Source: an uncultured beta proteobacterium (GTDB lineage: Bacteria > Pseudomonadota > Gammaproteobacteria > Burkholderiales > Burkholderiaceae_B). Taken from it: 64,000 bases of DNA. Position numbers and translations under genes: made by a program. Below are positions 10,334 through 30,161 of the stretch, piece by piece. The DNA lies in NCBI GenBank assembly GCA_903821335.1, contig CAIJKV010000135.1, forward strand, positions 1-64,000. The letters run 5' to 3'. Under the pieces are notes generated by a model. The model made no database searches and had not been told where the DNA came from. It worked only from the letters and a program-made list of their open reading frames with translations. Within the stretch, counting starts at the first letter, position 1. Each line of letters starts with the position of its first letter.

Positions 10334-10354
10334 CGCTGATTACTTGATCAGCGC
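10333..10354. terminator. Shared hairpin at convergent gene ends
   Basis: A perfect 8-base inverted repeat, GCGCTGAT (10333-10340) and ATCAGCGC (10347-10354), with a 6-base loop, sits exactly between the convergent stops of the Bug and serine hydrolase genes. There is no T-tract on either side, so it is at best a weak or transcript-end-stabilising hairpin. Confidence 0.35.
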
Positions 10355-11626: not shown

Positions 11627-11840
11627 GGATGTCTCCTTGACGGATTAAAGTTATTTTTATGCGGCAACACACCGTGCCGGTCCAATTGAATCGGAGATAC
11701 GCCCTTTTTTCAAGGTGTTTTTGGTTGACTCTTTTCCCAAGTCGGTCCAGCGTTAAATATTGCCGACCAGGTCTTGCACCCTTGCCCGGTGCAGGTATGA
11801 TGAAGCACGATATTTCCAGCCGTTATCCTGAGACTTCCTG

Positions 11841-13514
11841 ATGCGCAGTGACATTGAAATCGCCCAGACCGCAACCAAACTGCCCATCGTCGATCTGGCC
11901 GGCCAGCGAGCCGGGATCCCCCCCGAATGCCTCGAACCCTATGGCCGCTATAAGGCCAAGTTGTCGCTCGATTACATCGCCTCTCTCGCGGATCGCCCCA
12001 ACGGCAAGCTGATCCTGGTGACCGCCATTTCACCGACACCCGCCGGCGAGGGCAAGACCACCACGACGGTCGGCCTGGGTGATGCGCTGAACCATATCGG
12101 TCGACGCGCCATCATATGCCTGCGCGAGCCATCCCTCGGGCCGGTGTTCGGCATGAAAGGCGGCGCGGCCGGCGGCGGGCTGGCGCAAGTCATCCCGATG
12201 GAAGACATCAACCTGCACTTTACCGGCGACTTCAATGCCATCGCCCTTGCCAACAACCTGCTTGCTGCCCTGATCGACAACCACATCCACCATGGCAACG
12301 TGCTTGGCATCGACATCCGCCGGGTCACCTGGCGTCGCGTCATGGACCTGAACGATCGCGCGTTGCGCAATATCGTGGCAGGCCTGGGCGGGGTCACCAA
12401 TGGCTTCCCGCGCGAAGATCACTTCGACATTGTGGTCGCTTCCGAAATCATGGCGATTTTCTGTCTCTCGACCAGCCTGAGAGACCTTAAAAACCGACTC
12501 GGCCGCATTGTGATTGGTTACTCAATCGACAACATGCCGATTCTTGCCCGCGATCTGCAGGCCGATGGCGCGATGGCTGCGCTGCTCAAAGACGCGCTGG
12601 CGCCCAACATCGTCCAGACACTGGAAAACAATCTCGCCTTTGTCCATGGCGGTCCCTTCGCCAACATCGCCCACGGCTGCAATTCGGTGCTGGCCACTTC
12701 AACCGCCCTGAAACTTGCCGACTACGTCGTGACCGAAGCCGGCTTCGGCGCAGACCTTGGCGCGGAAAAATTCGTCGACATCAAGTGTCGCAAGTCCGGC
12801 CTTGAGCCAGCGGCAGTGGTCATCGTCGCGACCGTGCGCGCCCTTAAATACCATGGCGGTGTGGAAGTGCGGGATGCGGGCATCGAAAACCTTGAGGCGT
12901 TGCGCCTCGGGCTCGTCAACCTTGAACGGCACGTCTTTAACATCCGCGAGAACTTTGGCCTGCCCTGCGTAGTCGCCATCAACCACCGCAGCCAGGACAC
13001 CGTGGCCGAAATCGCGTTGCTCAAAGCGGCGGCGCAAGACCTGGGTGCCGAAGTCATCCTGGCGCGCCACTGGGCCGAAGGCGGCGCCGGCGCCACGGAA
13101 CTTGCGCAGGTTGTGGTCAAACTCTGCGATCAACCGAGTCATTTTAAATACCTGTACAAAGACGAAGACACCCTGTGGCAAAAAGCGACCACCATTGCCA
13201 CGAAAATCTATGGCGCCTCGTCCATCTCGGCCAAGCCCGCCGTGCGCACGCATATTGAAATGTTGCAACGCCAAGGCTATGGACGCTTGCCGGTCTGCAT
13301 TGCCAAGACCCAATATTCTTTTTCAACCGACGCCACGCTGCGCGGGGCGCCAAGCGACCATACCGTCGACATCCGCGAGGTCAGGCTGTCGGCAGGCGCG
13401 GAATTTGTCGTGATGGTGTGTGGCAACATCCTGACCATGCCAGGGCTCCCTGCTGTGCCAGCGGCCAATTCAATCGACATTGACGACAGCGGGCGTATTA
13501 TTGGACTGTTCTGA
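11841..13514 (+). CDS. fhs: Formate-tetrahydrofolate ligase
   Basis: A 557-residue enzyme of normal length for FTHFS. It activates formate with ATP and joins it to tetrahydrofolate, giving 10-formyl-THF for purine synthesis and one-carbon metabolism. The nucleotide-binding loop [18 protein letters not shown] is clear, as are the family stretches [32 protein letters not shown] and [14 protein letters not shown]. The product of the nearby formamidase is formate, so Fhs can use it; this link is inferred. It is monocistronic or followed at 55 bases by the MgtC-like gene. Confidence 0.97.
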
Positions 13515-13568
13515 ATCTTTCCAACGTGAGGATCGCGTTCACTTTTTCGCGAATATTTTCCAAACAAT

Positions 13569-14054
13569 ATGCTGACAGTGCTACCCGACGCGACGCTGGA
13601 CATCGTCTTTCGCCTTGGCCTGGCCATGCTGGCTGGCATGATTCTGGGGCTTAACCGCTGGCTGCATCACAAATCTGCCGGTGTACGCACACATTCACTG
13701 GTTTCCCTGGGTGCCGCGGTCGCGATGATTCTGGTCGAGAGTCACGTGGGCAGTGATGCCCAATCCCATAGCCGGGTCATACAGGGCTTGGTGACGGGCA
13801 TAGGCTTTCTCGGCGCGGGCGTCATCATCCGGGAAAATTCCCGCCACATCCATGGTCTCACCACCGCGGCGAGTATCTGGGCCTGCGCAATGCTCGGCGC
13901 GGCGGCGGGTGCCGGCAATATCCTGCTGGGTGGACTCGCCCTGGCGGCGATCATGATCACGCTGATCCTTGGCGGCCCGATGGAAGTCTTGATGGGGCGG
14001 CTACTCGGCGTGCGCAGCTCCAATGGGGGCTCAGAAAAAGAACATGACGCCTGA
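13569..14054 (+). CDS. MgtC/SapB-family inner-membrane protein
   Basis: A 161-residue protein with about four to five hydrophobic helices, matching the short, membrane-only form of MgtC/SapB (no C-terminal ACT-like domain). Signature pieces are AGMILGLNRW, AGVRTHSLVSLGAAV, TGIGFLGAGVIIRE and the GLTTAASIWACAMLGAAAGAG helix. In pathogens MgtC adjusts F-type ATP synthase activity and survival at low magnesium; the role of short environmental members is less clear. It follows fhs by about 55 bases and is followed within ten bases by the nucleosidase gene. Confidence 0.9.
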   Translation: MLTVLPDATLDIVFRLGLAMLAGMILGLNRWLHHKSAGVRTHSLVSLGAAVAMILVESHVGSDAQSHSRVIQGLVTGIGFLGAGVIIRENSRHIHGLTTAASIWACAMLGAAAGAGNILLGGLALAAIMITLILGGPMEVLMGRLLGVRSSNGGSEKEHDA

Positions 14055-14063
14055 GGCACCCCC

Positions 14064-14633
14064 GTGCGCATGAAATCCGACATCATTGTGATCACCGCTT
14101 TGCCCATGGAGCTTGACCATGGAAAACTTCCTGATCATGTCAGGATCGTGTACTCGGGCGTTGGAAAAATTAACGCAACCATGGCGACGATCCAGGCGAT
14201 CCAGTCCTGTCAACCCTCACGGATCATCAATTTCGGAACCGTCGGGCGCGTCAGCGCGGGGCTTGAAGGCCTGCTCGATATTGCAAAAGTCATCCAGCGC
14301 GACATGATCGCCGAGCCGCTGTCCCCTCGCGGGCGCGTTCCTTTTTGCGAAAAGCCTCACGAATATTTTTCAGGTCGCGGCAGCCATACTTGCGGCACGG
14401 GCGACAGCTTTGTGACCAGCAAGGATGTGTGGCTGCATGACCAGGGCATTGATGTGGTCGATATGGAACTGTTCGCGATCGCCGTCGTCGCCCACCATCA
14501 CGGCATTCCGTGGATGTCGTTCAAATACATCACGGATGATGCCAACGCGTCCTCGGGCGAGGACTGGCACGCGCGAGTCAACCAAGGCGAACTGCTATTC
14601 CTGGAAAAACTCAGGGAAATAGCGGGCGACTGA
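14064..14633 (+). CDS. Phosphorylase-superfamily nucleosidase (MTA/SAH nucleosidase-like)
   Basis: A 189-residue protein of the purine phosphorylase/MTAN fold. It shows SDIIVITALPMELD at the N-terminus, VYSGVGKINATMATIQAI, INFGTVGRVSAGL, the VVDMELFAIAVVAHHHGIPW segment with the conserved M-E of the ribose site, and FKYITDDANASSGEDW with the catalytic-type aspartate. It is shorter than canonical Pfs and may hydrolyse methylthioadenosine, S-adenosylhomocysteine or another nucleoside. A GTG at 14064, seven bases after GAGG, fits better than the ATG at 14070. It lies ten bases after the MgtC-like gene. Confidence 0.82.
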   Translation: MRMKSDIIVITALPMELDHGKLPDHVRIVYSGVGKINATMATIQAIQSCQPSRIINFGTVGRVSAGLEGLLDIAKVIQRDMIAEPLSPRGRVPFCEKPHEYFSGRGSHTCGTGDSFVTSKDVWLHDQGIDVVDMELFAIAVVAHHHGIPWMSFKYITDDANASSGEDWHARVNQGELLFLEKLREIAGD

Positions 14634-14660: not shown

Positions 14661-15014
14661 CTAGTGACTGATCATCCAGGGACGCGTTCCCGCAAACATC
14701 TTGTTGCCGTTTGACAACGTGCGGGTATTAGATTTCTTTGCCGAGGTCGAACAACAGCCGCAACCAGACGGGTGGCGCAGACGCATATAGCTGTCCTTGT
14801 CACGCGACGAGATCGGCACGTTCGCGGCGCGTTCATTGGTTTCAATTGCACGACGGGTGACCGAGTCAACGCAAGCCAGTTTGGCACCGAACGAAAATGC
14901 GCGGGGAGCTTGCCCCCCGCAATCCGGACAAACTGCCGGCATATCGCGATCACGGGTGGATCGCAGTGCGTCGAAGCTCCCGCATGACGCGCAGGAATAA
15001 TCATAAATAGGCAT
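14661..15014 (-). CDS. fmdB: FmdB-family zinc-ribbon protein
   Basis: A 117-residue small protein starting with the FmdB zinc ribbon, MPIYDYSCASCGSF followed by AVCPDCGG, i.e. two CxxC pairs that should bind zinc. The C-terminal half is basic and contains a CGCC cluster (HPSGCGCCSTSAKK). In Methylophilus methylotrophus the homologue is described as a regulator of the formamidase genes. It is the last gene of the operon, 28 bases after fmdA, which supports the name. Confidence 0.88.
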   Translation of the reverse strand: MPIYDYSCASCGSFDALRSTRDRDMPAVCPDCGGQAPRAFSFGAKLACVDSVTRRAIETNERAANVPISSRDKDSYMRLRHPSGCGCCSTSAKKSNTRTLSNGNKMFAGTRPWMISH

Positions 15015-15042: not shown

Positions 15043-16272
15043 TTACAGATCCAGCGACAAAGGCATGTCAATACCCGGCGTCACCAATTTGGTCGGACCG
15101 TTTGCGTTGGGATTGATATCAAAGTCAAAGATCTGGGTGGGCAACCACAGCGTTGCGCACGCGTTCGGGATATCAACGACGCCACTGATATGCCCTTGCA
15201 CGGGAGCCGTACCGAGGATTGAATAGGCTTGCGCGCGTGAGTACCCGAACTTGGTCATGTATTCAATCGCGTTCAGGCAAGCCTGGCGGTAGGCAACCTG
15301 AACATCCAGGTAATGCTGCTGACCTTTTTCGTCGACTGAGATGCCTTCAAAGATCAGGTAGTCGTTGTAATGCGGTGTGATCGGGCTGGGTTTGAAAATC
15401 GGATTCTTGATGCCGTACTTGGCCATGCCACCCTTGATGATCTCAACTTTCATATGCACCCAGCCGGCCATCTCGATGGCACCGCAGAAGGTGATTTCAC
15501 CATCGCCCTGGCTAAAGTGCAAATCGCCGACAGACAAGCCTGCGCCGTCAACGTAGACAGGGAAGTAGACTTTGGAACCGCGCGACAGATCTTTGATGTC
15601 GCAGTTGCCGCCGTGCTCGCGCGGAGGCACAGTACGGGCACCTTCGGCCGCGATCTTGTCCTTGACGGCACCCGTCGCCTGGCCGGTATGCGCCGTTTTT
15701 GCAAACGGTGGGTTGGCAAGAGGCGGCACGCGGTCAGGTTCCGTCGCGATGAAATCGATCTCGCGCTTGTTCCACTCGTCGAGCATTTTCTGGTCGGGCA
15801 GACAACCAATCAGGCCGGGGTGAATCAGGCCCGCGAATTTCACATTTGGGATGTGACGGCTGGTCGTGAACATGCCATGGAAGTCCCAGATGGACTTCTG
15901 CGCGCTGGGAAAATGTTCAGTCAGGAAGCCACCACCATTGTTCTTGCTAAAGAAACCGTTGAAACCCCAAAGGCTATCGTCCTTGGCGCCGATGTCGAGC
16001 AGTTCGACCACCAGCAAGTCACCTGGCTCGGCACCTGTGACGCCAACGGGGCCCGACAGAAAGTGCACAGTTGACAAGTCAATGTCGCGCACGTCATCCG
16101 CGCTGTCGTCGTTCTTGATGAAGCCGCCTGTCCAGTCAAAGGTCTCGAGCACGAAATCATCGCCCGGCTTGACCCAGCAAGCCATGGGGATATCGGGGTG
16201 CCAGCGATTATGAATCTTGGGGTTGTCGTAGGGCGACTGCTTGAGGTCAACTGAAATGAGAGTTTCGGGCAT
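15043..16272 (-). CDS. fmdA: Formamidase (acetamidase/formamidase family)
   Basis: A 409-residue amidase that hydrolyses formamide to formate and ammonia. The family is recognised from the opening MPETLISVDLKQSPYDNPKI, NRWHPDIPMACWVKPGDDFV, HFLSGPVGVTGAEPGDLLVV, REHGGNCDIKDLSRGSKVYF and HFSQGDGEITFCGAIEMAGW. The start was set at the ATG 16270-16272, which has AAGAGGTG just upstream; a 19-codon extension to 16329 looks spurious. It lies 77 bases after urtE in the same orientation, so import and hydrolysis of the amide are probably co-expressed. Together with fmdB this mirrors the fmd cluster of methylotrophs. Confidence 0.95.
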   Translation of the reverse strand: MPETLISVDLKQSPYDNPKIHNRWHPDIPMACWVKPGDDFVLETFDWTGGFIKNDDSADDVRDIDLSTVHFLSGPVGVTGAEPGDLLVVELLDIGAKDDSLWGFNGFFSKNNGGGFLTEHFPSAQKSIWDFHGMFTTSRHIPNVKFAGLIHPGLIGCLPDQKMLDEWNKREIDFIATEPDRVPPLANPPFAKTAHTGQATGAVKDKIAAEGARTVPPREHGGNCDIKDLSRGSKVYFPVYVDGAGLSVGDLHFSQGDGEITFCGAIEMAGWVHMKVEIIKGGMAKYGIKNPIFKPSPITPHYNDYLIFEGISVDEKGQQHYLDVQVAYRQACLNAIEYMTKFGYSRAQAYSILGTAPVQGHISGVVDIPNACATLWLPTQIFDFDINPNANGPTKLVTPGIDMPLSLDL

Positions 16273-16349
16273 GGTGCACCTCTTTAAATGACTGAACGGG
16301 GTTTGGAACAAAAACGAATGACACGGCAATGCATGCAGTACAAAACGAT

Positions 16350-17042
16350 TCAGACCGACAGGTATTGTTTGATCCGGCCAACATCCGAATCCGAGTGCGA
16401 GGTTTCATACACCAGGCGTCCGCCCTCGATAACAAACAGACGATCCGCGACCTCCAGGGCAAAACTCAGCACCTGTTCGGATACGATGATGGTGATGCCG
16501 CGCATTCTTCGAATTTCATTCAAGGCCTTGGCGATATCCTTGATGATGGATGGCTGGATACCTTCCGTTGGCTCATCGAGCAACAAAACCTTCGGCTCCG
16601 TCACAAGCGCCCGCGCAATCGCAAGTTGCTGTTGCTGACCACCGGACAGGTTGCCGCCCTTGCGCGCGCGCATGTCCCACAGGACGGGGAACAGCGCATA
16701 GATTTCCTCGGGGATGACGTGATCTTTCGAGTTTTCCAGGCCAGTCTGAATGTTCTCCTCAACGGTCAAGGTCGGAAATATCATGCGGCCCTGGGGAACA
16801 TAGGCAATGCCCTTGGCGACGCGGCGATAGCTCTCGTCACGCGTAATGTCCTGACCGTTAACAGATATCGAGCCGCTTTTAGCCGGCAACAGTCCCATCA
16901 GGCTTTTAAAAAAAGTGGTCTTGCCCATGCCATTACGACCCATGATGGCGACCGTTTCCTGCTTGCCGGCCTCCAGGGATATGCCGTGCAGGGCTTCGCT
17001 CTGGCCATAAGCGACGTGGAGATCTTTCACGCTAAGCATCAC
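16350..17042 (-). CDS. urtE: Urea/short-chain amide ABC transporter ATP-binding protein UrtE
   Basis: A 230-residue ABC ATPase of the LivF/UrtE class. Walker A is GRNGMGKTT, the signature is NLSGGQQQQLAIARAL and Walker B is VLLLDEPTEGIQP, with the family hallmark YGQSEALHGISLEAGK at the start. Together with UrtD it energises uptake of urea, formamide or a related amide. A GTG at 17042 and an ATG at 17039 are possible starts; GGAG is better spaced for the ATG. It follows urtD by eight bases. Confidence 0.94.
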   Translation of the reverse strand: MMLSVKDLHVAYGQSEALHGISLEAGKQETVAIMGRNGMGKTTFFKSLMGLLPAKSGSISVNGQDITRDESYRRVAKGIAYVPQGRMIFPTLTVEENIQTGLENSKDHVIPEEIYALFPVLWDMRARKGGNLSGGQQQQLAIARALVTEPKVLLLDEPTEGIQPSIIKDIAKALNEIRRMRGITIIVSEQVLSFALEVADRLFVIEGGRLVYETSHSDSDVGRIKQYLSV

Positions 17043-17050
17043 AGGTCTCC

Positions 17051-17797
17051 TTAGTGTCCGAGATAAACTTCAATGACTGCCGGATCGTTCTGGACCTTGT
17101 CCATCGATCCTTCAGCGAGAATCTTGCCCTGGTGCATAACCGTCACCTTGTGGGCAATTTTCTTGACAAACTCCATATCGTGTTCGATCACGATGACGGA
17201 CCGGTTGTTTGAAATACGCTTGAGCAGTTCGGCGGTCAGTTCGCGCTCGCGCACGCTCATTCCGGCTATCGGCTCATCGAGCATCAGGAGCTCGGGCTCC
17301 TGCATCAGCAGCATGCCGATTTCAAGCCACTGCTTTTGCCCGTGGGACAACAAGCCCGCCTCCATGCCCAGCATCTCGATCAGGCCGATTTCCCTGGCAA
17401 CCCCGTCGACACGCTCCTTGACGTCATCCGTGCATTTGAAAAACATTGCGCCAACAACAGAACGCCCCCTCGGAAACGACACCTCGAGGTTCTGGAACAC
17501 AGACAAGTTTTCATAAATGGATGGTGTCTGGAACTTGCGACCAATGCCACGTCGCACGCGGGCAAATTCCGGCAAGACCGTCATTTCTTCGTTCTTGAAC
17601 TTGATGCTGCCCTCACTGGCCCGCGTTTTCCCGCAAATCAGGTCAAGCAAGGTCGTCTTGCCTGCGCCGTTGGGCCCGATGATGACACGCAACTCGTTCT
17701 TGTCGACATACAGATTCAGACTATCGATGGCTTTGAACCCATCAAAGGAAACCGTCAAGTCCTCAACGGCCAGAACAAAATCAGTGCTGCTGCTCAT
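17051..17797 (-). CDS. urtD: Urea/short-chain amide ABC transporter ATP-binding protein UrtD
   Basis: A 248-residue LivG/UrtD-class ATPase. Walker A is GPNGAGKTT, the signature region is LLSHGQKQWLEIGMLLMQ (the SHGQKQ form that marks UrtD) and Walker B is LLMLDEPIAGMS. The start overlaps the end of urtC by 4 bases, as expected of a translationally coupled operon. Together with UrtE it forms the nucleotide-binding pair of the importer. Confidence 0.94.
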   Translation of the reverse strand: MSSSTDFVLAVEDLTVSFDGFKAIDSLNLYVDKNELRVIIGPNGAGKTTLLDLICGKTRASEGSIKFKNEEMTVLPEFARVRRGIGRKFQTPSIYENLSVFQNLEVSFPRGRSVVGAMFFKCTDDVKERVDGVAREIGLIEMLGMEAGLLSHGQKQWLEIGMLLMQEPELLMLDEPIAGMSVRERELTAELLKRISNNRSVIVIEHDMEFVKKIAHKVTVMHQGKILAEGSMDKVQNDPAVIEVYLGH

Positions 17798-19023
17798 GGC
17801 GCGCTCCTTCTGATGACAAGACCTGCCGGGCTATCTGACTGCACGGCGATGGCAGAGGCGGTGCGCATGTCGGCATCGAGTTGGGGTTCGCGCTCTGCTG
17901 CGGCTTCGATCTCGACCAAACGCTGCTTGATCATGTGCCGCTCGTGTGCGCGTCGGTTCCACCAGGGTTTGACATGCGACTCGAACAGACCGGCCAGCCC
18001 GTAGGGGAACGCCATCGTCACACCTATGAACAGGGCGGCCATCAGGAACAGCCACATGTCAGGAAAGCTTTCGGAAAAGAGTGTCTTGCTCGCGTTGACC
18101 AGCAGCGCACCGTAGACGGCACCAACCAGACTTAACCGACCACCGACCGCGCAGAGGATGACCAGTTCAATCGACGGGACAATGCCCACGAACGACGGCG
18201 ACATGAAGCCAACCTGCAAGGCGAAGAACGCACCACCAATGCCAGACACACCGGCGGCCAGGCAAAATGCAGCCACCTTGAACATCGACACGTCGTAGCC
18301 GGAAAACCGCACGCGATCTTCCTTGTCACGCATGGCCAGCAAAAGTGTGCCGAACTTGCTGCGCTGCAGCCAGGTGCCAAGCATGACGCAAATCAACAGC
18401 GTCACTGAGCAGGCGTAATACAGAATGATCTTGGAGGAGTCATCGCGTGTATCCCAGCCGTGGATGGTCTTAAGGTCAGTCATGCCGTTGACACCGCCCG
18501 TGTACCCTTGCAAGCCAATGATCAGTGTGGTGACGATCAGTGCCACGGCCTGGGTAATGATGGCAAAGTAGACGCCACCGACACGACGCTTGAACATTGC
18601 ATAGCTGACAATGAACGCCAATAGCATGGGCAGGACGACGACGGCGATCAGGGAAAAGGTCAAACTCTTGAAAGGTATCCACCAAATTGGCAGCGCAGTG
18701 ATCTGATTCCAGTCCATGAAGTCCGGAATGCCTGGCGTTGACTGAATCTTGGTGGTGATCGGATCGGACGCTTCGAGTTTCAGGAACATGGCCATGGCAT
18801 ACCCACCCAGGCCGAAGAACACGCCCTGACCCAGACTGAGCACCCCGCCCCAGCCCCACAGCACGACGAGGCCGATGGCGACAAAGGCGTAGGTGAGATA
18901 TTTTCCAACCAGGTTCAGGCGAAAGTTGTCCAGGGCAACCGGGAATACAACCAGCAGGATGACCGACAGGATTGCGATACTCAGCACGCCTGGTTGCTTG
19001 AGCAGAGTCTTTAAACTATTCAT
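17794..19023 (-). CDS. urtC: Urea/short-chain amide ABC transporter permease UrtC
   Basis: A 409-residue LivM/UrtC-type permease with about ten hydrophobic helices, including GWGGVLSLGQGVFFGLGGYAM and the cytoplasmic coupling segment SKFGTLLLAMRDKEDRVRF. A charged tail of about 50 residues follows the last helix. The ATG at 19023 has GGAG nine bases upstream; an in-frame extension to 19074 is less likely. It lies 28 bases after urtB. It forms half of the membrane channel with UrtB. Confidence 0.93.
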   Translation of the reverse strand: MNSLKTLLKQPGVLSIAILSVILLVVFPVALDNFRLNLVGKYLTYAFVAIGLVVLWGWGGVLSLGQGVFFGLGGYAMAMFLKLEASDPITTKIQSTPGIPDFMDWNQITALPIWWIPFKSLTFSLIAVVVLPMLLAFIVSYAMFKRRVGGVYFAIITQAVALIVTTLIIGLQGYTGGVNGMTDLKTIHGWDTRDDSSKIILYYACSVTLLICVMLGTWLQRSKFGTLLLAMRDKEDRVRFSGYDVSMFKVAAFCLAAGVSGIGGAFFALQVGFMSPSFVGIVPSIELVILCAVGGRLSLVGAVYGALLVNASKTLFSESFPDMWLFLMAALFIGVTMAFPYGLAGLFESHVKPWWNRRAHERHMIKQRLVEIEAAAEREPQLDADMRTASAIAVQSDSPAGLVIRRSAP

Positions 19024-19051
19024 GACATTGATCTCCGAAAAGCAGTGTGGA

Positions 19052-19969
19052 TTAGCGACGAACCTTGGAGGCAAACAACCCCTGAGGCCGAATCATCAGG
19101 ACGATCACGATGAACGACAGCGTAAAAACCTTTGCCATCGAACCAGTCATGAAGAACTCACTGATGGACTGGATCTGAGCGATGCCGAAGGCCGACGCCG
19201 CAGTACCCAGTAAGCTGGCAGCACCACCAAAGGTGACCACCAGGAATGCATCCACGATGTAAAGAGATCCAGATGTCGGCCCGGTCGAGCCGATGGTTGT
19301 AAAAGCGGCGCCGGCAATCCCGGCGATGCCGCAGCCAATTGCGAATGTCAGTTGGTCTGTCTTTTTGGTATTGATGCCGATTGCGTTGGCCATCGGACGA
19401 TTGCTCACTGTGGCGCGAACCCGCAGGCCCCAGCGACTTCTGTACAGCGCGATCATGACGCTGGCAGTCACCAGCAGCGTGAGCGCCATCACAAACATGC
19501 CATTGATCGGAATATCCAGGCCTTCCTGAGGTGCCCAGGAACCCATCAGCCATTCAGGCAGAGTCGGACTCACTTCCTTGGGACTGATAAACGTGCGGAA
19601 CACCTGCTGGAGACCCAGGCTCAGGCCCCAGGTCGCCAGCAGGGTATCCAGTGGACGCTTATACAAATGACGAATAAGCGCCCACTCGGCAATCCAGCCA
19701 CCTATGAACGCAAATACAAAGGCAGCCAGAATGGCAAACGGGAAGTAGGCCGGCATGAAGTCCGGCGCGTACTTCTCAGTCAACGTCGAGCCAAGGAAGA
19801 CTGTGTAGGCACCAATCGCCATGAACTCACCGTGAGCCATGTTGATCACACCCATCTGACCGAAAATGATCGCCAGGCCGAGCCCCATCAGGAGCAGCAC
19901 AGCAAACAGGCTCAGACCTGCGAAGCCCTGCATCAGGGCAATATTGAGCATTTCAGACAGTTCCATCAT
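19052..19969 (-). CDS. urtB: Urea/short-chain amide ABC transporter permease UrtB
   Basis: A 305-residue LivH/UrtB-type permease with about eight helices. MGVINMAHGEFMAIGAYT and KRPLDTLLATWGLSLGLQQV are diagnostic. Many proteobacterial UrtB proteins carry a long N-terminal extension of about 200 residues; this one is the short form. The start has two adjacent ATG codons directly after AAGGAAG; the second (19966) has the better spacing. It lies 33 bases after urtA. Confidence 0.92.
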   Translation of the reverse strand: MMELSEMLNIALMQGFAGLSLFAVLLLMGLGLAIIFGQMGVINMAHGEFMAIGAYTVFLGSTLTEKYAPDFMPAYFPFAILAAFVFAFIGGWIAEWALIRHLYKRPLDTLLATWGLSLGLQQVFRTFISPKEVSPTLPEWLMGSWAPQEGLDIPINGMFVMALTLLVTASVMIALYRSRWGLRVRATVSNRPMANAIGINTKKTDQLTFAIGCGIAGIAGAAFTTIGSTGPTSGSLYIVDAFLVVTFGGAASLLGTAASAFGIAQIQSISEFFMTGSMAKVFTLSFIVIVLMIRPQGLFASKVRR

Positions 19970-21259: not shown

Positions 21260-21485
21260 GAAATGTGCTCCTGGGGTTGACAGACCAATTAACAAACGGA
21301 CGCTGTGAATGCATTCTGCTTGCTGCAGTGCGCAATCCAAATACGTCAAACAACGTATCCGGCCTCACCCGGTCCCCGGGCAGGCACGCCGCTCCTATAA
21401 TCAGGGCTTGCTGATCGTGCGTCGCGCGCAGCCGTAGCAATCCGTCGACACCTGCCGGCTGCCGGCCAGGACTGGAACCCAACCT
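21260..21485. promoter_or_regulatory. Divergent promoter region between urt/fmd operon and sensor-kinase genes
   Basis: This 226-base gap must hold the promoters for both the amide-uptake operon (minus) and the NCS1-kinase/response-regulator pair (plus). A perfect TATAAT at 21396-21401 is a possible -10 box for the plus direction, without a clear -35 at the right distance. I looked for a sigma-54 -24/-12 pair and for a guanidine or other riboswitch shape and found none I could support. Confidence 0.4.
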
Positions 21486-24400
21486 GTGACCACTGCAAAC
21501 CAGAAAATCATCCGCATCAGACGCGAATACAACGCCTGGGTGGCTGACGAGTCGCTTGAAGACTACGCGCTGCGCTATACCCCACGGTCCTTCCGTAAAT
21601 GGTCTGAGTGGCGCGTGGCCAATACCGCGCTGGGCGGCGTGTCGTTCCTGGCCCTCGAGGCCATTGGCGCCGTGATGGTGCTCAATTACGGGTTCACCAA
21701 CACCATGTGGGCCATTCTTGCGGTCGCACTAGTGACCTTCCTCACTGGCCTGCCGATCAGCTATTACGCCGCCCGCTATGGCGTCGACATCGACTTGCTC
21801 ACGCGCGGTGCCGGCTTCGGGTACGTCGGATCGACCATCACCTCCCTGATTTACGCGGCATTCACCTTCATATTTTTCGCGCTTGAGGCCGCCATCATGG
21901 CCTTGGCGCTCAAGCTCTACCTGGACTGGCCCATCGTCTGGTGCTACATCATCAGTGCGCTGGTGATCATCCCGCTCGTATTGCGCGGCATCACGCTCAT
22001 CTCCAGGCTGCAGATCTGGACACAAGGACTCTGGCTGCTGCTGCTGGTCTGCCCGTATGTCGCCATCGCCATCAAAGATCCAGGCGCCTTCACGGACTTC
22101 ATGGGCCTGAGCGGCCAGATATCAGGCAACAGCGATTTCAACTGGCTGATGTTCGGCGCGGCCTGCACAGTCGCCTGTTCACTGGTCGTTCAAATTGGCG
22201 AACAGGTCGATTACCTGCGATTCCTGCCCGAGAAAACTGAAAAGAATCGTTGGCGCTGGTGGGCGGCGGTCGTGATCGCAGGACCTGGCTGGATTATCCC
22301 AGGCGGAGCCAAAATGCTCGGCGGAGCTTTCCTGGCTTTCCTGGTGTTGCAGCAGCAATTGCCCGGAGAACTGGCCAGCGAACCCACGCGCATGTATATG
22401 GCAGGTTTCTCCTATGTGTTTCGCGACCCGGTGTGGGTCGTCGCCATCACGGCTCTGTTCGTGATCCTGTCCCAGGTCAAAATCAATGTCACCAATGCCT
22501 ACGCCGGTTCCCTTGCCTGGTCCAATTTCTTTGCACGCCTGACACATAGCCATCCGGGTCGGGTTGTATGGCTGGTCTTCAACGTAGTCATCGCCACGCT
22601 ACTCATGACACTGGGCGTGTTTCGCGCGCTCGAACAAGTACTGGGGCTCTACAGCAACGTGGCCATCGCCTGGATTGGCGCCATTGTTGCCGACCTCGTG
22701 ATCAACAAGCCCTTGGGCTTGTCTCCCAAAGGGCTGGAGTTCAAGCGCGCCTACCTGTACGACCTCAATCCCGTCGGCATCGGTGCCACGCTCATCGCGG
22801 CCACTGTCGCACTGGTTGCCTACAGCGGCCTGCTCGGCGAAACTTCAAAGGCGTTCGCCCCCTTCCTTGGCTTGTGCATCTCTTTTGTGCTGTCACCAGT
22901 GATTGCCTGGCTCACGCACGGTCGTTGGTACATCGCGCGGCGCGCGCCGACACTCACCAACACCTCAAAAATCGTTCAGTGCAGTGTTTGCGAAAATCAC
23001 TTCGAAGCACCCGACATGGCGCACTGCCCGGCGTACGGCGCGCCCATCTGCTCACTATGCTGCACACTCGACTCGCGTTGCCATGATTCCTGCAAGGTCG
23101 GCTCCCGGCTCGACGAGCAAGTATCGGGCTGGATGATGCATGTCCTGCCCAACTCGATATCCGAGCGGTTCAAGTCGCGAGCGGGACGATTCCTGGTTGT
23201 CTTTCTGTCGCTCTCTCTGGTGCTTGCGACCGTCATGGGCATCGCGCTGACGCAGGACGGGCCAACCGATCTCAGTCCCCATAGTCTGCAGACCAGCATC
23301 GTCACCAAAGTGTCGATGATGATGTTGCTGGTGATCGCAGTATGTAGCTGGTGGGTAGTGCTCATCAACGAAAGTCGGCGTCTGGCCCAGGAAGAATCCA
23401 ATGCGCAAAGCCGGCTGTTGCAGCGCGAGGTCGAAACCCTGCGCCGCACTGACGTCGCCCTGCAAGCGGCAAAAGAGCTGGCCGAATACGCCAACCGAGC
23501 CAAGACACGCTATGTGGCTGGCATGACGCACGAGTTACGCACGCCGCTCAACAGCATCCTGGGTTACCTGCAGATTTTGCTCAAAGATTCCTCGCTGAAA
23601 CGCACACAGCGTGAATCCCTGCAAACAGTGCAGCGCAGCGGTGTGCACATGGCAGGCCTGGTGGATGACTTGCTCGACCTGGCCCATATCGAGTCGGGTC
23701 GGCTGCGGCTGGAAACCGCTCCGGTGCCATTGCCGCTGTTGCTTGATGAACTGGTCCGCATGGTGCGCCCGCAGGCTCAGGCCCGGGGACTTGAATTTGA
23801 ATATGTGGTGCAGGGAACCATGCGCGACTGGGTCAAGGGCGATGCCAAGCGATTGACCCAGGTGCTGATCAATTTGCTTGGCAACGCAATAAAATTTACT
23901 GACGCAGGACGTGTGACGCTGCATGTGGATGCCCGATCGGAGGTTCTGCAGTTCAGCATCGAGGACACCGGCGTGGGGGTCGCCCCGCTGGACCAGCAAC
24001 GCATATTCCTGCCGTTCGAACGTGGTGGCGCGGCACGCAAGCGAGGTGAACCCGGAACAGGCCTGGGCCTGACCATCACCGGACTGTTGACCTCGATGAT
24101 GGGCGGCGACCTTTCCATGACCAGCAAACAAGGTGTCGGCAGCACGTTTCGCGTGCGACTTTACCTGCCCGGCACCTCTGACCCAGGTCCGCTTACGCAA
24201 ACACTCGGGCCCGTTTCCGGCTACGTTGGCAAGCGGCTGACGCTGCTGGCCGTGGACGATCAGCCTGACCAGCGTCAGATGTTGGCGGCCTTGCTGCGCC
24301 CACTCGGATTCACGATGCACGAGGCTGCCAGTGGCAGCGAGTGCCTTGACACCCTGCAAGACAGCGTGCCCGACGCGATTTTGCTTGATATTTCCATGGA

Positions 24401-24866
24401 TGACATGGACGGCTGGCAAACCGCAAAGGCCATTCGCCAGCGGGGACTTCTCGACTTGCCTATCATTCTCGTATCGGCCAACCTGTACGATAATCAGCCC
24501 AGCAAGATGATCGAGGCCCAGGTTCAGGCTTTCGTGGGCAAGCCCGTCCTTGAATCCGAACTGGTCAGCGTGCTGGGGCGTTTCCTTGGCATCGAATGGG
24601 TTACAACAGGACTGAGCGGTGTCGACTTACCGCTTGAGACCGCCGAGGAACTCGCACGGGTCGATGAACCGCTGCCTGAAATGCTGCGTGAAAAAATTGC
24701 ACCCTTGCTGCGCATCGGCCACGTTCAGGGCCTGCTCGACCTGCTTGACGAGCATGCCTTGCACGAACCGTCGCACAAGGCACTGACCTTGCGCCTGCGC
24801 GCAATGGTCCTGCGCTTTGATTTTGAGTCCATGATCGCACTAACGAAAGAACCCGTTGATGACTAA
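21486..24866 (+). CDS. NCS1-type transporter domain fused to hybrid sensor histidine kinase/response regulator
   Basis: An 1126-residue fusion. Residues 1 to about 480 are a twelve-helix NCS1 (purine/cytosine/allantoin permease) domain. Next is a cysteine-rich segment with C499, C502, C514, C522, C525, C526, C532 and C536, a likely zinc site. Two further membrane helices follow (about 569-588 and 609-627), then a coiled-coil-like linker. The kinase core has phospho-acceptor H682 in GMTHELRTPLNSILGY, the N-box with N800 (INLLGNAIKF) and DTGVGVA plus GTGLGLTI nucleotide-binding motifs. A receiver domain follows with D924, D925 and phospho-acceptor D968, then about 90 helical residues with no obvious HPt histidine. 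Start is GTG. It overlaps the LuxR-type regulator and faces the amide-uptake operon, so it probably senses or transports an amide or nucleobase-like compound and signals its presence. Confidence 0.92.
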   Translation: MTTANQKIIRIRREYNAWVADESLEDYALRYTPRSFRKWSEWRVANTALGGVSFLALEAIGAVMVLNYGFTNTMWAILAVALVTFLTGLPISYYAARYGVDIDLLTRGAGFGYVGSTITSLIYAAFTFIFFALEAAIMALALKLYLDWPIVWCYIISALVIIPLVLRGITLISRLQIWTQGLWLLLLVCPYVAIAIKDPGAFTDFMGLSGQISGNSDFNWLMFGAACTVACSLVVQIGEQVDYLRFLPEKTEKNRWRWWAAVVIAGPGWIIPGGAKMLGGAFLAFLVLQQQLPGELASEPTRMYMAGFSYVFRDPVWVVAITALFVILSQVKINVTNAYAGSLAWSNFFARLTHSHPGRVVWLVFNVVIATLLMTLGVFRALEQVLGLYSNVAIAWIGAIVADLVINKPLGLSPKGLEFKRAYLYDLNPVGIGATLIAATVALVAYSGLLGETSKAFAPFLGLCISFVLSPVIAWLTHGRWYIARRAPTLTNTSKIVQCSVCENHFEAPDMAHCPAYGAPICSLCCTLDSRCHDSCKVGSRLDEQVSGWMMHVLPNSISERFKSRAGRFLVVFLSLSLVLATVMGIALTQDGPTDLSPHSLQTSIVTKVSMMMLLVIAVCSWWVVLINESRRLAQEESNAQSRLLQREVETLRRTDVALQAAKELAEYANRAKTRYVAGMTHELRTPLNSILGYLQILLKDSSLKRTQRESLQTVQRSGVHMAGLVDDLLDLAHIESGRLRLETAPVPLPLLLDELVRMVRPQAQARGLEFEYVVQGTMRDWVKGDAKRLTQVLINLLGNAIKFTDAGRVTLHVDARSEVLQFSIEDTGVGVAPLDQQRIFLPFERGGAARKRGEPGTGLGLTITGLLTSMMGGDLSMTSKQGVGSTFRVRLYLPGTSDPGPLTQTLGPVSGYVGKRLTLLAVDDQPDQRQMLAALLRPLGFTMHEAASGSECLDTLQDSVPDAILLDISMDDMDGWQTAKAIRQRGLLDLPIILVSANLYDNQPSKMIEAQVQAFVGKPVLESELVSVLGRFLGIEWVTTGLSGVDLPLETAEELARVDEPLPEMLREKIAPLLRIGHVQGLLDLLDEHALHEPSHKALTLRLRAMVLRFDFESMIALTKEPVDD

Positions 24867-25725
24867 GCAATCTGAAAATATCCGGCCCATTGTGCTGCTC
24901 GTGGACGATGCACCGAGCAGCCTGGGGCCTCTGTTTCAAACACTCGAAGCGGCGGGTTACAGCGTGGTCGTGGCACTTGACGGCGAGTCGGCGCTCGAGC
25001 GCCTGGACATGGTGCTTGTCGATGCCATCCTGCTCGACGCCATCATGCCGGGCCTGTCTGGCTTCGAGACCTGCAGGCGCATCAAGGATAATCCGACGCT
25101 CGCGCATCTCCCGGTCATTTTCATGACAGGTCTTGCTGACACGGAGCACATTGTTTCCGCGTTCGATAGTGGCGGCGTCGATTATGTTGTCAAGCCAGTC
25201 AGATCAGAAGAAGTCCTTGCACGGTTGCAAACCCACATCCGCAACGCAAAGGTCGCCCGTCTCGCGCGTGAAGCCGTCGATGTGGCCGGCTTTGGCGTGG
25301 TCCTGATCGACACGCAAGGTCGCATCGCCTGGCAGTCACCGCGTGCCCGCCAGTGGCTGCAGGGTGACAACTCAAGGCTGGACCTGACCATGATGCTCAG
25401 CGAATCGGCGACACAACTCCGTATGCCAGGACACCCTGAGCTGTCGGTTCGCAACCTGGGCCAGGTGGGACTGGGCGAGACCATGCTATTGCTTGCGCAG
25501 GACGACCATCGCAGCAACGATGCCGCGCGCCTGCAGCAAGCCGCACTGACGCCGCGCGAGGGCGAAGTACTATCGTGGCTGGCCAAGGGAAAAACGAACC
25601 GCGACATCGCCGACATACTGGGCATGAGCCCGCGCACCGTCAACAAGCACCTGGAGCACATTTTTGACAAGCTGGGCGTTGAGACCCGGTCTGCTGCGGC
25701 CGCGATTGGCGTTCGCTTTCAATAA
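24859..25725 (+). CDS. Response regulator with receiver and LuxR-type DNA-binding domain
   Basis: A 288-residue two-component regulator. The receiver domain has D16/D17 (VLLVDDAPS), phospho-acceptor D60 (AILLDAIMPGLSG) and the conserved lysine in DYVVKPV. Between about residues 130 and 215 lies a PAS-like stretch (AGFGVVLIDTQGRIAWQSPRA). The C-terminal LuxR helix-turn-helix is LTPREGEVLSWLAKGKTNRD through MSPRTVNKHLEHIFDKLGVE. The ATG at 24859 overlaps the kinase-fusion stop by eight bases, so the two are a cognate pair. Its likely target, by position, is the divergent urt/fmd promoter region; this is inference. Confidence 0.93.
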   Translation: MTKQSENIRPIVLLVDDAPSSLGPLFQTLEAAGYSVVVALDGESALERLDMVLVDAILLDAIMPGLSGFETCRRIKDNPTLAHLPVIFMTGLADTEHIVSAFDSGGVDYVVKPVRSEEVLARLQTHIRNAKVARLAREAVDVAGFGVVLIDTQGRIAWQSPRARQWLQGDNSRLDLTMMLSESATQLRMPGHPELSVRNLGQVGLGETMLLLAQDDHRSNDAARLQQAALTPREGEVLSWLAKGKTNRDIADILGMSPRTVNKHLEHIFDKLGVETRSAAAAIGVRFQ

Positions 25726-27977: not shown

Positions 27978-29582
27978 TTACGCCTGGAGCACCCAGAAGT
28001 GGTGCGTGCCGTCCTTTCTGAGTTGTTCAACCAGACCGAATTCCCAGTCCAGGTAGGCCTGCATCGCTTGCTGGCCGCTGTCGGTGCCTTCGTAAGGGCG
28101 CTTGTAGCGATCGATCGGTGGCGAGGCCAGATGGCTCTCGCCCGTTTCCATCGGCTGCAAAGCGGCCTTCCAGGCGTTGGTGCCACCGGCCAGAACCTGA
28201 ACATCGCGCCCGAGCACCTGCTCGGCCTGCGCTGCAGCGACTCTGGACAGCAAGCCGTCCGGACACGTCACGACAACGTGTGCCGCCAGGGGCAAGCTGG
28301 CCAGCGACGCACTGATTTGGGAGCGCAGCACGTAGTAAGCCCCCGGCACATGACCCTGCACATACTGCACATGCTTGGCGAGATCGATCGTGACCACCTG
28401 GCCGGGCGTGGCGATCCAGTGCGCCAACTCGGCCACCGACACCTCCCGGTGAGCCGGGATGGCAGGCAATGGTGGCTGCCAGGCACCGGTCTCACTGAAC
28501 GCGCAAGCATCGGCCTCATCCAGCACCCAGACATCCCATGCCATCTGCGCCAGCCATGAGGCGGTCATATTGGCCCGGACACCGTCACGATCCACCAGCA
28601 CGATGCGCGCGCCGCGCACCGGCACGACCATCTCAGTTTCCTGAACCAGTTGCCCACCCGGCATCGACCGAAAACCCGACACATGCCCCGCTGCGTACTC
28701 TTCGGGCGTGCGGGTATCAAAGCAGTACGTCGTGCGGTCGCGCTGCAACTGCCAGGATCGCACCTGTCCCAGCGATGCGCGCGCAACACCTGCGCGGTCC
28801 GCAACCTTGCGCGCCTTGAGGCTCCAAGCCCCGGTCGTGGTCGCCGACACCTCACCAACACGACGTAGCTGACCCCGGTCAAGCACCTGACCGGCCAGCT
28901 TCCAGCCAATTGTGCCGTTGCGCAGGGCCGACACGGCGTTAGGAACCCCGGCATTAATCAGTGACTGCGTACCGATAATGCTGCGCGTGCGTCCCGCACA
29001 ATTGACGATCACGCGCGTTTGCGGGTGCGGTGCCAGTTGCGCCACGCCTAAGACCAGTTCAGCGCCTGGGCAACTGGTGGCGGTAGGAATGCTCATGGTC
29101 TGGTACTCATCAAAGCGACGGGCGTCCAGAATCACCACGTCAGCCTTCTCGTCGATCAAAGCCCGGACCTCTTCGGCAGACAGCGACGGCGTATGGTTGC
29201 TGGCTTCGACCAGTTCACCAAACGCTTTGCTCGGCACATTCACATCACGAAAAACTTCCCCGCCCGCCGCCTGCCAGCCCCGCATGCCTCCCTCGAACAC
29301 CGCGACATCGGTATACCCGAGCGTAAGCAGCCTGCTTGCAGCCAGTTGCGCATCGCCCTCACCGTCATCCAGGGTCACGATCGCGACATCGCGGCGAGGC
29401 AACTTCCCGTAGGCGTCGAGTTCCACACGGGAAAGCGGAAAATTGGCTGCAAACAACGGATGTGCCTGCGCATGCGGATCCTCCTCTCTCACATCGAGTA
29501 AGGCGATTTCCTCTTTGTTCAGCAATTTCGCGCGCACTTCCTGATAACTGCGCGCAGGGATCGCAGCGGAGGGACTGTTCAT
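27978..29582 (-). CDS. Four-domain rhodanese-related sulfurtransferase
   Basis: A 534-residue protein made of four rhodanese repeats. Domain 1 (about 8-110) has TLDDGEGD where the catalytic cysteine loop should be. Domain 2 (about 130-235) has an intact loop, NCAGRTRSIIG. Domain 3 (about 270-370) has VDRDGVRAN, again without cysteine. Domain 4 (about 385-490) has VTCPDGLLSRVA with cysteine. Two active and two inactive domains therefore alternate. Rhodaneses move sulfane sulfur from thiosulfate or persulfides to acceptors. It lies six bases downstream of the thiol dioxygenase gene, so both act on thiols or persulfides from one transcript. Confidence 0.9.
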   Translation of the reverse strand: MNSPSAAIPARSYQEVRAKLLNKEEIALLDVREEDPHAQAHPLFAANFPLSRVELDAYGKLPRRDVAIVTLDDGEGDAQLAASRLLTLGYTDVAVFEGGMRGWQAAGGEVFRDVNVPSKAFGELVEASNHTPSLSAEEVRALIDEKADVVILDARRFDEYQTMSIPTATSCPGAELVLGVAQLAPHPQTRVIVNCAGRTRSIIGTQSLINAGVPNAVSALRNGTIGWKLAGQVLDRGQLRRVGEVSATTTGAWSLKARKVADRAGVARASLGQVRSWQLQRDRTTYCFDTRTPEEYAAGHVSGFRSMPGGQLVQETEMVVPVRGARIVLVDRDGVRANMTASWLAQMAWDVWVLDEADACAFSETGAWQPPLPAIPAHREVSVAELAHWIATPGQVVTIDLAKHVQYVQGHVPGAYYVLRSQISASLASLPLAAHVVVTCPDGLLSRVAAAQAEQVLGRDVQVLAGGTNAWKAALQPMETGESHLASPPIDRYKRPYEGTDSGQQAMQAYLDWEFGLVEQLRKDGTHHFWVLQA

Positions 29583-29588
29583 ATTGTT

Positions 29589-30161
29589 CTATTTCCAGAG
29601 ATTGGGGACGACGTCCAGGCTGTAGCCTGACACGAAGGCCTTTGTCGAGCCTGTAACGGGGTCAAATACATGGCGGTGAATGCGGCCAATATTGCCGCCA
29701 TAGACATGAATGCTAATGGAAGTCTGATCGGAGTAGGCATTGGCTACTTCGTGGACATCATGCGTGGCGGGCGACACGAAACCGATCTGTCCCGGCACAA
29801 GCGCGTGGTGCGCGCCAGGCTGGTAACTGCCGTCTGACTGACGATGATATGGGGTCTCGATTTCCTGACCCCGCAACATGCCGATCAAACCCCAGGTCAT
29901 GTGATCATGGACAGGTGTTTTCTGACCAGGCCCCCAGACAAAACTCACCATTGAAAACCGATCAAGCGGATCGGCGTACAACAGGTATTGCTGATAATAC
30001 TGCGGGTGTGGGACGGCGAACAACGCAGGCAGCCAGTCATCGCTGGCGACTAGCGTCGCCAACAACGCGCCTCCTTGGGCAAGAATTTCCGGCTCGTCCG
30101 GCCGTGTCTCGAGCAACCTGCTCATCGCCTGCACGTAGACTAATAATTTCTCGTTATGCAT
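29589..30161 (-). CDS. Cysteine dioxygenase-family thiol dioxygenase
   Basis: A 190-residue cupin enzyme of the cysteine/3-mercaptopropionate dioxygenase family. Iron ligands are H85 and H87 in TPVHDHMTWGLIGML and H137 in THDVHEVAN. The closing SISIHVYGGNIGRIHRHVFD is also characteristic. It would add dioxygen to a small thiol, giving a sulfinate. Bacterial members include both cysteine- and 3-mercaptopropionate-specific enzymes, and the choice is not clear from the sequence alone. It is first in a two-gene unit with the four-domain rhodanese protein. Confidence 0.92.
   Translation of the reverse strand: MHNEKLLVYVQAMSRLLETRPDEPEILAQGGALLATLVASDDWLPALFAVPHPQYYQQYLLYADPLDRFSMVSFVWGPGQKTPVHDHMTWGLIGMLRGQEIETPYHRQSDGSYQPGAHHALVPGQIGFVSPATHDVHEVANAYSDQTSISIHVYGGNIGRIHRHVFDPVTGSTKAFVSGYSLDVVPNLWK

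Follow-up and report, generated by a model that had tools for sequence, protein, structure and literature searches.

The 64,000-nucleotide (nt) stretch of DNA analysed here (the window), from contig CAIJKV010000135.1 of an uncultured beta proteobacterium, carries a gene for a membrane-bound hybrid histidine kinase (the sensor) and a gene for a LuxR-type response regulator, which lie divergent from an operon of the urt and fmd type. It is practically beyond doubt that the sensor is a permease-kinase-receiver fusion and that the gene of its LuxR-type regulator overlaps it. From the gene neighbourhood and a shared palindrome, we propose that the sensor is a transceptor-like hybrid kinase whose signal is probably a short amide or urea rather than a nucleobase, and which would activate urt, fmd, ami and ure genes. 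The pair is made up of the following features.

21486-24866 (+), sensor: NCS1-type permease, cysteine domain, two transmembrane (TM) helices, HisKA, HATPase and receiver; 1126 amino acids (aa), GTG start
21582-22925 (+), NCS1-type 12-helix permease module, aa 33-480; fold model, Foldseek and hhalign, without a PF02133 match
22980-23093 (+), eight-cysteine segment C499-C536, predicted to form a double zinc site of RING-like type; conservation and model
23178-23357 (+), two additional membrane helices, aa 565-624; DSSP helices 565-590 and 599-624 in the model
23499-23699 (+), HisKA with the phospho-acceptor H682; PF00512, E 2.5e-19
23838-24167 (+), HATPase_c with the N-box N800; PF02518, E 4.8e-25
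24246-24572 (+), receiver domain with D968; PF00072, E 3.7e-21
24859-25725 (+), response regulator with receiver and LuxR-type (GerE) helix-turn-helix; PF00072 and PF00196

The kinase has the composition of a hybrid kinase, as Pfam placed HisKA at aa 672-738, HATPase_c at 785-894 and Response_reg at 921-1029, with the H, N and D residues present, and its partner is composed of Response_reg and GerE. The two open reading frames (21486-24866 and 24859-25725) share 8 bases (b). No Hpt domain was matched in a Pfam search of the C-terminal tail of the kinase (24591-24863). A sequence-only reading of this stretch had already described the kinase core with H682 and N800, the receiver with D968, the eight-cysteine segment C499-C536, two extra membrane helices and the overlapping regulator gene; the residue positions proved exact, the helices appear in the fold model and the domains agree with Pfam. 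The same reading had taken the membrane part for a complete twelve-helix NCS1 domain, in place of the SLC5-type permease of CbrA, and this claim needed proof.

The NCS1 model of Pfam, PF02133, found no match in the window protein or, at up to E 10, in 18 relatives, and a scan of the genome of the window at up to E 10 returned nothing. TIGR00800 at up to E 1 and a direct sequence search of the sensor against the PDB were also without a match. The AlphaFold2 model of the sensor (18-row alignment, mean predicted local distance difference test (pLDDT) score 73.9) contains 12 helices, followed by two more after the cysteine segment, and its five best Foldseek matches in the PDB were all Mhp1 or CodB (E 6e-9 to 4e-7, TM-score to target 0.67-0.77), with SLC5 and other LeuT-fold structures ranking below them. 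When a profile of 111 sensors was aligned by hhalign to a set of 30 frame-checked PF02133-matching sequences, the result was 99.2% with an E value of 9e-20 over aa 33-451, compared with 1.0% for the reversed profile. In aligning the family, one misplaced row (L037) was dropped. A Pantoea protein annotated as a cytosine permease forms a bridge, matching the window protein at E 4e-22 and PF02133 at 5e-10. Because the fold match, the profile alignment and the Pantoea bridge agree despite the missing PF02133 match, we conclude that the membrane part of the sensor, as modelled, derives from NCS1 as a branch that the curated models do not cover, which bears out the proposed NCS1-type permease. An SLC5 or Amt fold was ruled out by Pfam and Foldseek, and Pfam listed neither SLC5 (SSF) nor STAC domains in the kinase at E 0.001.

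The pocket was mapped onto Mhp1 through L171, a sequence that aligns to Mhp1, and through the alignment of the sensor and NCS1 profiles, using Q121, N318, S312 and T313 of Mhp1, which we take to be its pocket and sodium-site residues. Q121 corresponds to E134 and N318 to N337, and both are invariant in 111/111 sensors and in four stand-alone permease relatives. The positions of S312 and T313 (the Na2 site) are occupied by K332 and I333, meaning that the Na2 cation-site residues of Mhp1 are not kept. K332 is a lysine in all 111 sensors and in two Acinetobacter permeases, and an arginine in the Pantoea type. The sensor permease is therefore like Mhp1 and CodB in its fold and in the profile alignment, but differs from them in lying outside PF02133 and in this replacement of the presumed Na2 serine and threonine. 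The lysine at the Na2 site suggests sodium-independent binding in the modelled pocket. For amide versus urea specificity, no rule emerged from the alignment, in which the top columns (398, 140, 299 and 56) were dominated by one large Burkholderiales clade. Among six urea groups, column 140 departs from the amide majority in all, but to differing letters, column 299 in five, column 398 in four and partly in a fifth, and column 56 in three.

The eight cysteines (C499, C502, C514, C522, C525, C526, C532 and C536) recur as a pattern in 137 of 138 sensor matches, which is not chance, and each single cysteine is kept in 110 or 111 of 111 sensors. A model of the segment from 49 rows shows two short hairpins and a helix, mostly at pLDDT 85-93 and falling to 73 at the end. 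Foldseek matches of the domain were weak (the best, at E 0.5, being a non-RING chain, with RING-type chains from E 0.7 and none at E 0.001), as were those of the Pfam model Prok-RING_1, which matched 8 of 49 members with a best E value of 0.058. Two of the stand-alone permeases, from Acinetobacter, end in the half motif CxxC...CxxC, four of the eight cysteines, so that part of the cysteine domain belongs to the permease. We infer that the domain could be a structural zinc coupler between the permease and the kinase.

The operon divergent from the sensor is urtABCDE-fmdA-fmdB, as listed here together with the operator discussed below.

21342-21357 (no strand), putative operator TACGTCAAACAACGTA, 82 b upstream of the urtA ATG; the only exact TACGT-N6-ACGTA in the 3.99 Mb genome
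20003-21259 (-), urtA, amide/urea-type ATP-binding cassette (ABC) substrate-binding protein; TIGR03407 above cut-off
19052-19969 (-), urtB; TIGR03409 above cut-off
17794-19074 (-), urtC, start uncertain; TIGR03408 above cut-off
17051-17797 (-), urtD; TIGR03411 above cut-off
16350-17042 (-), urtE; TIGR03410 above cut-off
15043-16329 (-), fmdA, formamidase, start uncertain; NF045496 above cut-off
14661-15014 (-), fmdB-type zinc ribbon protein; TIGR02605 and NF053663 above cut-off

UrtA to UrtE and FmdA all pass their NCBIfam cut-offs, in keeping with the earlier proposal that the divergent operon imports and cleaves formamide or urea-like amides. It is of the FmdDEF/UrtABCDE type, in which short-chain amide and urea uptake is combined with the formamidase FmdA. 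Two-component control of such systems by a sensor of this kind did not turn up in our literature searches. An Ectopseudomonas urtABCDE operon, to which an fmdA locus tag is directly adjacent, is listed next to a two-component pair of the LuxR type; the pair is not analysed in the available part of that report (PMC13296017).

The genome of the window encodes a single copy of the sensor, and matches were found in 12 of 61 relatives, in 50 of 300 genomes of the order and in 54 of 398 genomes of the phylum, although a few of the phylum matches are fragments or permeases that stand alone. Scanning GTDB genomes with two peptide patterns yielded at least 584 confirmed stretches, in which one gene may count twice, and 532 of 72,556 plasmid records contained a match, 342 of them from Klebsiella. 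Two locus sets were compared. The phylum sample consists of 56 sensor loci with flanks of about 9 kb (less at contig ends), not picked by closeness; it excludes the window as well as four matches that are fragmentary or stand-alone, namely G520:C40, G604, G557 and one of G695 (its second piece). The best-80 set holds the 80 loci (L042-L121, with 82 sensors) picked as closest among the at least 584 stretches.

The sequence-only reading had named neighbours unrelated to amides as an observation that would speak against it, and this was not what we found: UrtA, FmdA or UreC was present at 54 of 56 loci in the phylum sample (37 amide-like and 17 urea-like), the two others, L228 and L259, being cut by contig ends. 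As a control, 20 ordinary NCS1 loci were taken with flanks of comparable length (shorter for three); none carried any of these genes, apart from one 30% UrtA-like match. In the best-80 set, a marker gene accompanied 77 of the 82 sensors, or 78 if the urease genes of L112 are counted. The regulator was matched at 54 phylum-sample loci (all but L250 and L257), and a divergent urtA started less than 900 b from the sensor at 37. Annotated plasmid records show several arrangements, including urt with fmdA, mostly together with an amidase or nitrilase; urt with urease; urease with urtA further off; urt alone; fmdA with AmiS/UreI; and urt with fmdA on a Klebsiella plasmid. The sensor is also encoded on the pSymB record of Sinorhizobium meliloti 1021.

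A quick maximum-likelihood tree of 113 rows, in which many inner branches are weak, scatters the urease-associated sensors and needs eight changes between the amide and urea labels; labels were set per locus, so the second sensor of L060 bears the label of its neighbour. Formamidase and urease systems seem to have taken the sensor into use on several occasions.

The consensus operator TACGTYRNNYRACGTA, newly identified in the present analysis, is a predicted binding site in the sensor-urtA gap. It was discovered in 91 such gaps reduced to 77 non-redundant ones, of which 52 contain the exact dyad TACGT-N6-ACGTA, while the commonest dyad in 30 shuffles reached at most 5; the relaxed form TACGY-N6-RCGTA occurs in 65. 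Over both locus sets, exact sites number 62 in 104,880 b around sensor starts, compared with 27 in 2,469,461 b elsewhere. Because the motif was discovered in these gaps, it was tested outside them. Twenty-five consensus sites are over 700 b away from any sensor start, 20 of them before fmdA, 3 before amiE, 1 before urtA and 1 unassigned, although several come from related Pseudomonas and not all are independent. Among 24 cases in which urtA and the sensor are over 700 b apart (two of them added by hand from plasmid records), the relaxed site lies before urtA in 14 and before the sensor in none; upstream of the regulator or urtB, 0 of 215 regions had one. The operator mostly sits 55-150 b before start codons, the distance to the nearest ATG having a median of 108 b for urtA, 85 b for fmdA and 120 b for urea-type urtA, and being 55 and 62 b for amiE.

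In the genome of the window, the exact dyad occurs once and the relaxed form four times, compared with 22 for a reversed-pattern control. The sole other copy of the consensus core is on another contig, 85 b before an aliphatic amidase gene, whose product scores 716 bits against a cut-off of 427. Taken together, the operator and a predicted regulon of urt, fmd, ami and ure genes are very probably real.

A scan of the sensor-urtA gap for sigma-70 promoters returned nothing. A sigma-54-like element, GGCA-N6-TTGC, points to the sensor in 16 of the 77 gaps (e.g. L044, L068 and L210) and to urtA in none, with a mean of 0.8 and a maximum of 3 in shuffles; it was not found in the window gap. The orientation of this element suggests a possible sigma-54 control of the sensor in some lineages.

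On these grounds a mechanism can be proposed in which an NCS1-type permease became an input domain, whose pocket would bind a short amide or urea; judging from the gene neighbours, such a compound is the likely ligand of the module. The conformational change would travel by way of the RING-like cysteine domain and the extra pair of helices to H682 on the dimerisation helix, and could alter autophosphorylation. Phosphate would then go to the LuxR-type regulator encoded by the overlapping gene, while the receiver within the kinase (D968) would act as a relay or a sink. The regulator is predicted to bind the palindrome and to activate urtABCDE-fmdAB and the unlinked amiE, while in relatives it may activate fmdA, urease or a stand-alone permease. 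Where the sigma-54-like element is present upstream of the sensor gene, nitrogen limitation could gate the sensor.

Several observations weigh against this proposal. The putative ligand is deduced solely from the gene neighbours, and the residue mapping to Mhp1 from a low-identity profile alignment and presumed site residues. Three uncut loci of the best-80 set (L092, L096 and L105) have no marker gene, nor has L078, which is cut by a contig end. Upstream of the sensor, the exact dyad is limited to 45 of 80 loci in one set and 14 of 55 in the other, with 0 of the 32 urea-typed loci counted, although a relaxed variant precedes a distant urtA in several urea-typed loci; 10 of the 24 distant urtA genes have no site. 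The urease gene in the genome of the window has no operator copy on its contig. In the A. baumannii record, the relaxed form occurs seven times, compared with 13 in the reversed-pattern control, and only two of the seven were found at permease or ure genes (three were looked at: one between the kinase and a divergent permease, one 83 b before ureA and one intragenic). In addition, the published work on AmsSR, the A. baumannii system discussed next, describes induction by carbonyl cyanide m-chlorophenyl hydrazone (CCCP) and a broad metabolic shift (738 genes altered by loss of amsR, by RNA-seq under CCCP) and not urea, and its main text nowhere uses the words urea, urease, permease, amide or nitrogen (PMC10112286).

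AmsSR, also called StkSR, resembles the window pair in having a 14-TM sensor with HisKA, HATPase and receiver, no Hpt and an overlapping LuxR-type regulator, according to the available parts of the two reports (PMC10112286, PMC9146086). These sections link it to no NCS1 domain, ligand, urea or amide, and the first describes it as a hybrid kinase whose signal is unknown (PMC10112286, PMC9146086). The A. baumannii locus found here has 53% identity over sensor aa 4-625 and a regulator overlap of 4 nt, set against 8 b in the window; it is assigned to ABUW_2427 by architecture, not by locus tag. AmsSR is almost certainly a member of the NCS1-type sensor family. Its locus differs in the divergent partner, which is a stand-alone permease of the sensor's own family (L201, 8153-9799 (-), with the kinase at 9965-14385 (+)) where the window has urt. 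An operator-like sequence, TACGTTAAATTGCGTA, lies in the ureD-ureA gap of the A. baumannii record (L294, 3049-3064), 83 b before ureA, and the sites at the permease and ureA provide a testable proposal for the AmsSR regulon.

AmsSR also bears on a rival reading, in which the permease is a bystander, a transporter or scaffold, while the kinase responds, by way of its cysteine domain or of membrane state, to another signal (redox or quinones, for example), with the amide genes as one of several outputs. The AmsS authors propose quinone sensing and CCCP induces the AmsSR promoter, as far as the available sections of the report go (PMC10112286); the sensor also has eight conserved cysteines. However, the arrangement of the cysteines and the fold predicted for them agree with a structural zinc site, the two stand-alone Acinetobacter permeases retain four of the eight, the pocket residues are as invariant as the cysteines, and the neighbourhood and operator point to amide and urea genes. 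We therefore regard a bystander permease as unlikely.

Another possibility is that the signal comes through the ABC system, with ligand-loaded UrtA or the UrtBC permease touching the kinase, in the way that PstSCAB acts on PhoR by contact. The closeness of a divergent urtA, as counted above for 37 of the 56 loci, would fit such contact, but urease occurs without urtA in 7 of the 56 stretches (three with an urtB match), the Acinetobacter sensor stands with a stand-alone permease and no urtA in its stretch, and the sensors of L156, L250 and L257 stand with fmdA and AmiS/UreI and have no urtA within the fetched stretch, although any of these genomes may have a urt system elsewhere. Signalling through UrtA or UrtBC is thus highly improbable.

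A ligand of the kind usual for NCS1 carriers (a nucleobase, hydantoin or allantoin breakdown product), with the amide genes induced as such compounds release urea or formamide, is the least probable of all. The fold and profile are those of NCS1 and two stand-alone relatives are annotated as allantoin and cytosine permeases, but, bar these annotations, 13 annotated regions contained no gene for the catabolism of purines, pyrimidines or allantoin (the non-marker genes of other loci were not systematically typed), the sensor sequence lies outside the curated nucleobase models, and the operator copies beyond the sensor-urtA gap sit at amidase, formamidase, urt and urease genes. The function suggested by the sequence-only reading, sensing of an amide or nucleobase degradation product, therefore stands in part, as control of amide and urea uptake and hydrolysis is supported by the neighbours and the shared operator, while the nucleobase ligand was set aside for lack of genomic support.

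Few transporter-fused kinases are known, and their signal path is disputed. As described in the available parts of the respective reports, CbrA and CrbS are like the present sensor in joining a secondary-transporter domain to a kinase core via a small linker domain, but they use SLC5 and STAC instead of the NCS1-type and eight-cysteine modules and have another ligand class and regulon (PMC8871633, PMC7918813, PMC13022988). Ks-Amt5 is likewise an uptake transporter turned receptor that drives a histidine kinase and senses a nitrogen source; it differs in its Amt fold, and binds ammonium without transporting it efficiently (PMC5764959). An NCS1-kinase fusion was named in no title or abstract opening among those listed by our literature searches. 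While transporter-fused kinases as such are already known, the NCS1 input, the cysteine domain and the operator-defined regulon appear to be new, as none of them turned up in these searches.

A permease-fused sensor of this kind is widespread and largely unrecognised, and is predicted to detect urea and simple amides. A broader proposal, for which we consider the case evenly balanced, is that a large unnamed family of NCS1-type transceptor kinases could serve as the general urea and short-amide sensor of Proteobacteria, with the pocket, in which E134 and K332 would take the place of the sodium-coupled NCS1 site, as a cation-independent amide receptor, recruited repeatedly to formamidase and urease through one conserved operator; the stand-alone cousins would be NCS1-type urea or amide permeases and AmsSR the urea sensor for the A. 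baumannii urease. The sensor family would explain how the use of formamide, acetamide and urea is switched on in many soil bacteria and Pseudomonas, and offers a checkable signal for AmsSR. An NCS1 branch devoted to urea or amides, of which we know no earlier example, is suggested as well. The family is suited to such work: it is common (54 of 398 phylum genomes), related stand-alone permeases allow a direct comparison, its systems come in two natural types (amide and urea, with at least eight changes between them on the tree), and the operator is a ready reporter.

Among the stand-alone relatives, a 535-aa member in A. ursingii has 43% identity to the window sensor and is followed, after about 0.4 kb, by a urease operon. 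Pantoea and genome G520 have NCS1 members that are more distant and precede a hydrolase of the nitrilase family and a UrtA-like binding protein; Pantoea has an annotated ANTAR protein there, and in G520 the next short open reading frame was read as ANTAR by eye. The row of NCS1 permease, nitrilase-family hydrolase and UrtA-like protein (L169, 7449-11873; L155, 4950-10014) represents another amide-linked NCS1 group.

Tandem sensors were seen at L060 (at 10.0 kb and 16.8 kb) and L099 (at 4.4 kb and 12.1 kb), with one sensor of L060 falling in the amide clade and the other in the urease clade. L156 (9926-14441), L250 and L257 encode deep-branching, shorter sensors of about 880-900 aa, and in L156 the kinase is followed by two response regulators. 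On a Klebsiella plasmid (L152, 11998-17258), no regulator follows the kinase in the gene table, which is incomplete, and an IS5 element lies about 1.9 kb downstream. A cyanobacterial member from Phormidium sp. LEGE 05292 (L096, about 9964-12950) has a 995-aa open frame with no marker genes nearby.

In the window itself, Rfam returned nothing at gathering score between 13000 and 30000. A four-rhodanese protein (27978-30161 (-)) adjoins a cysteine-dioxygenase-like gene. A formate-tetrahydrofolate ligase (NF010030) is encoded close to fmdA, at 11841-13514 (+), through which the formate released from formamide could enter one-carbon metabolism.

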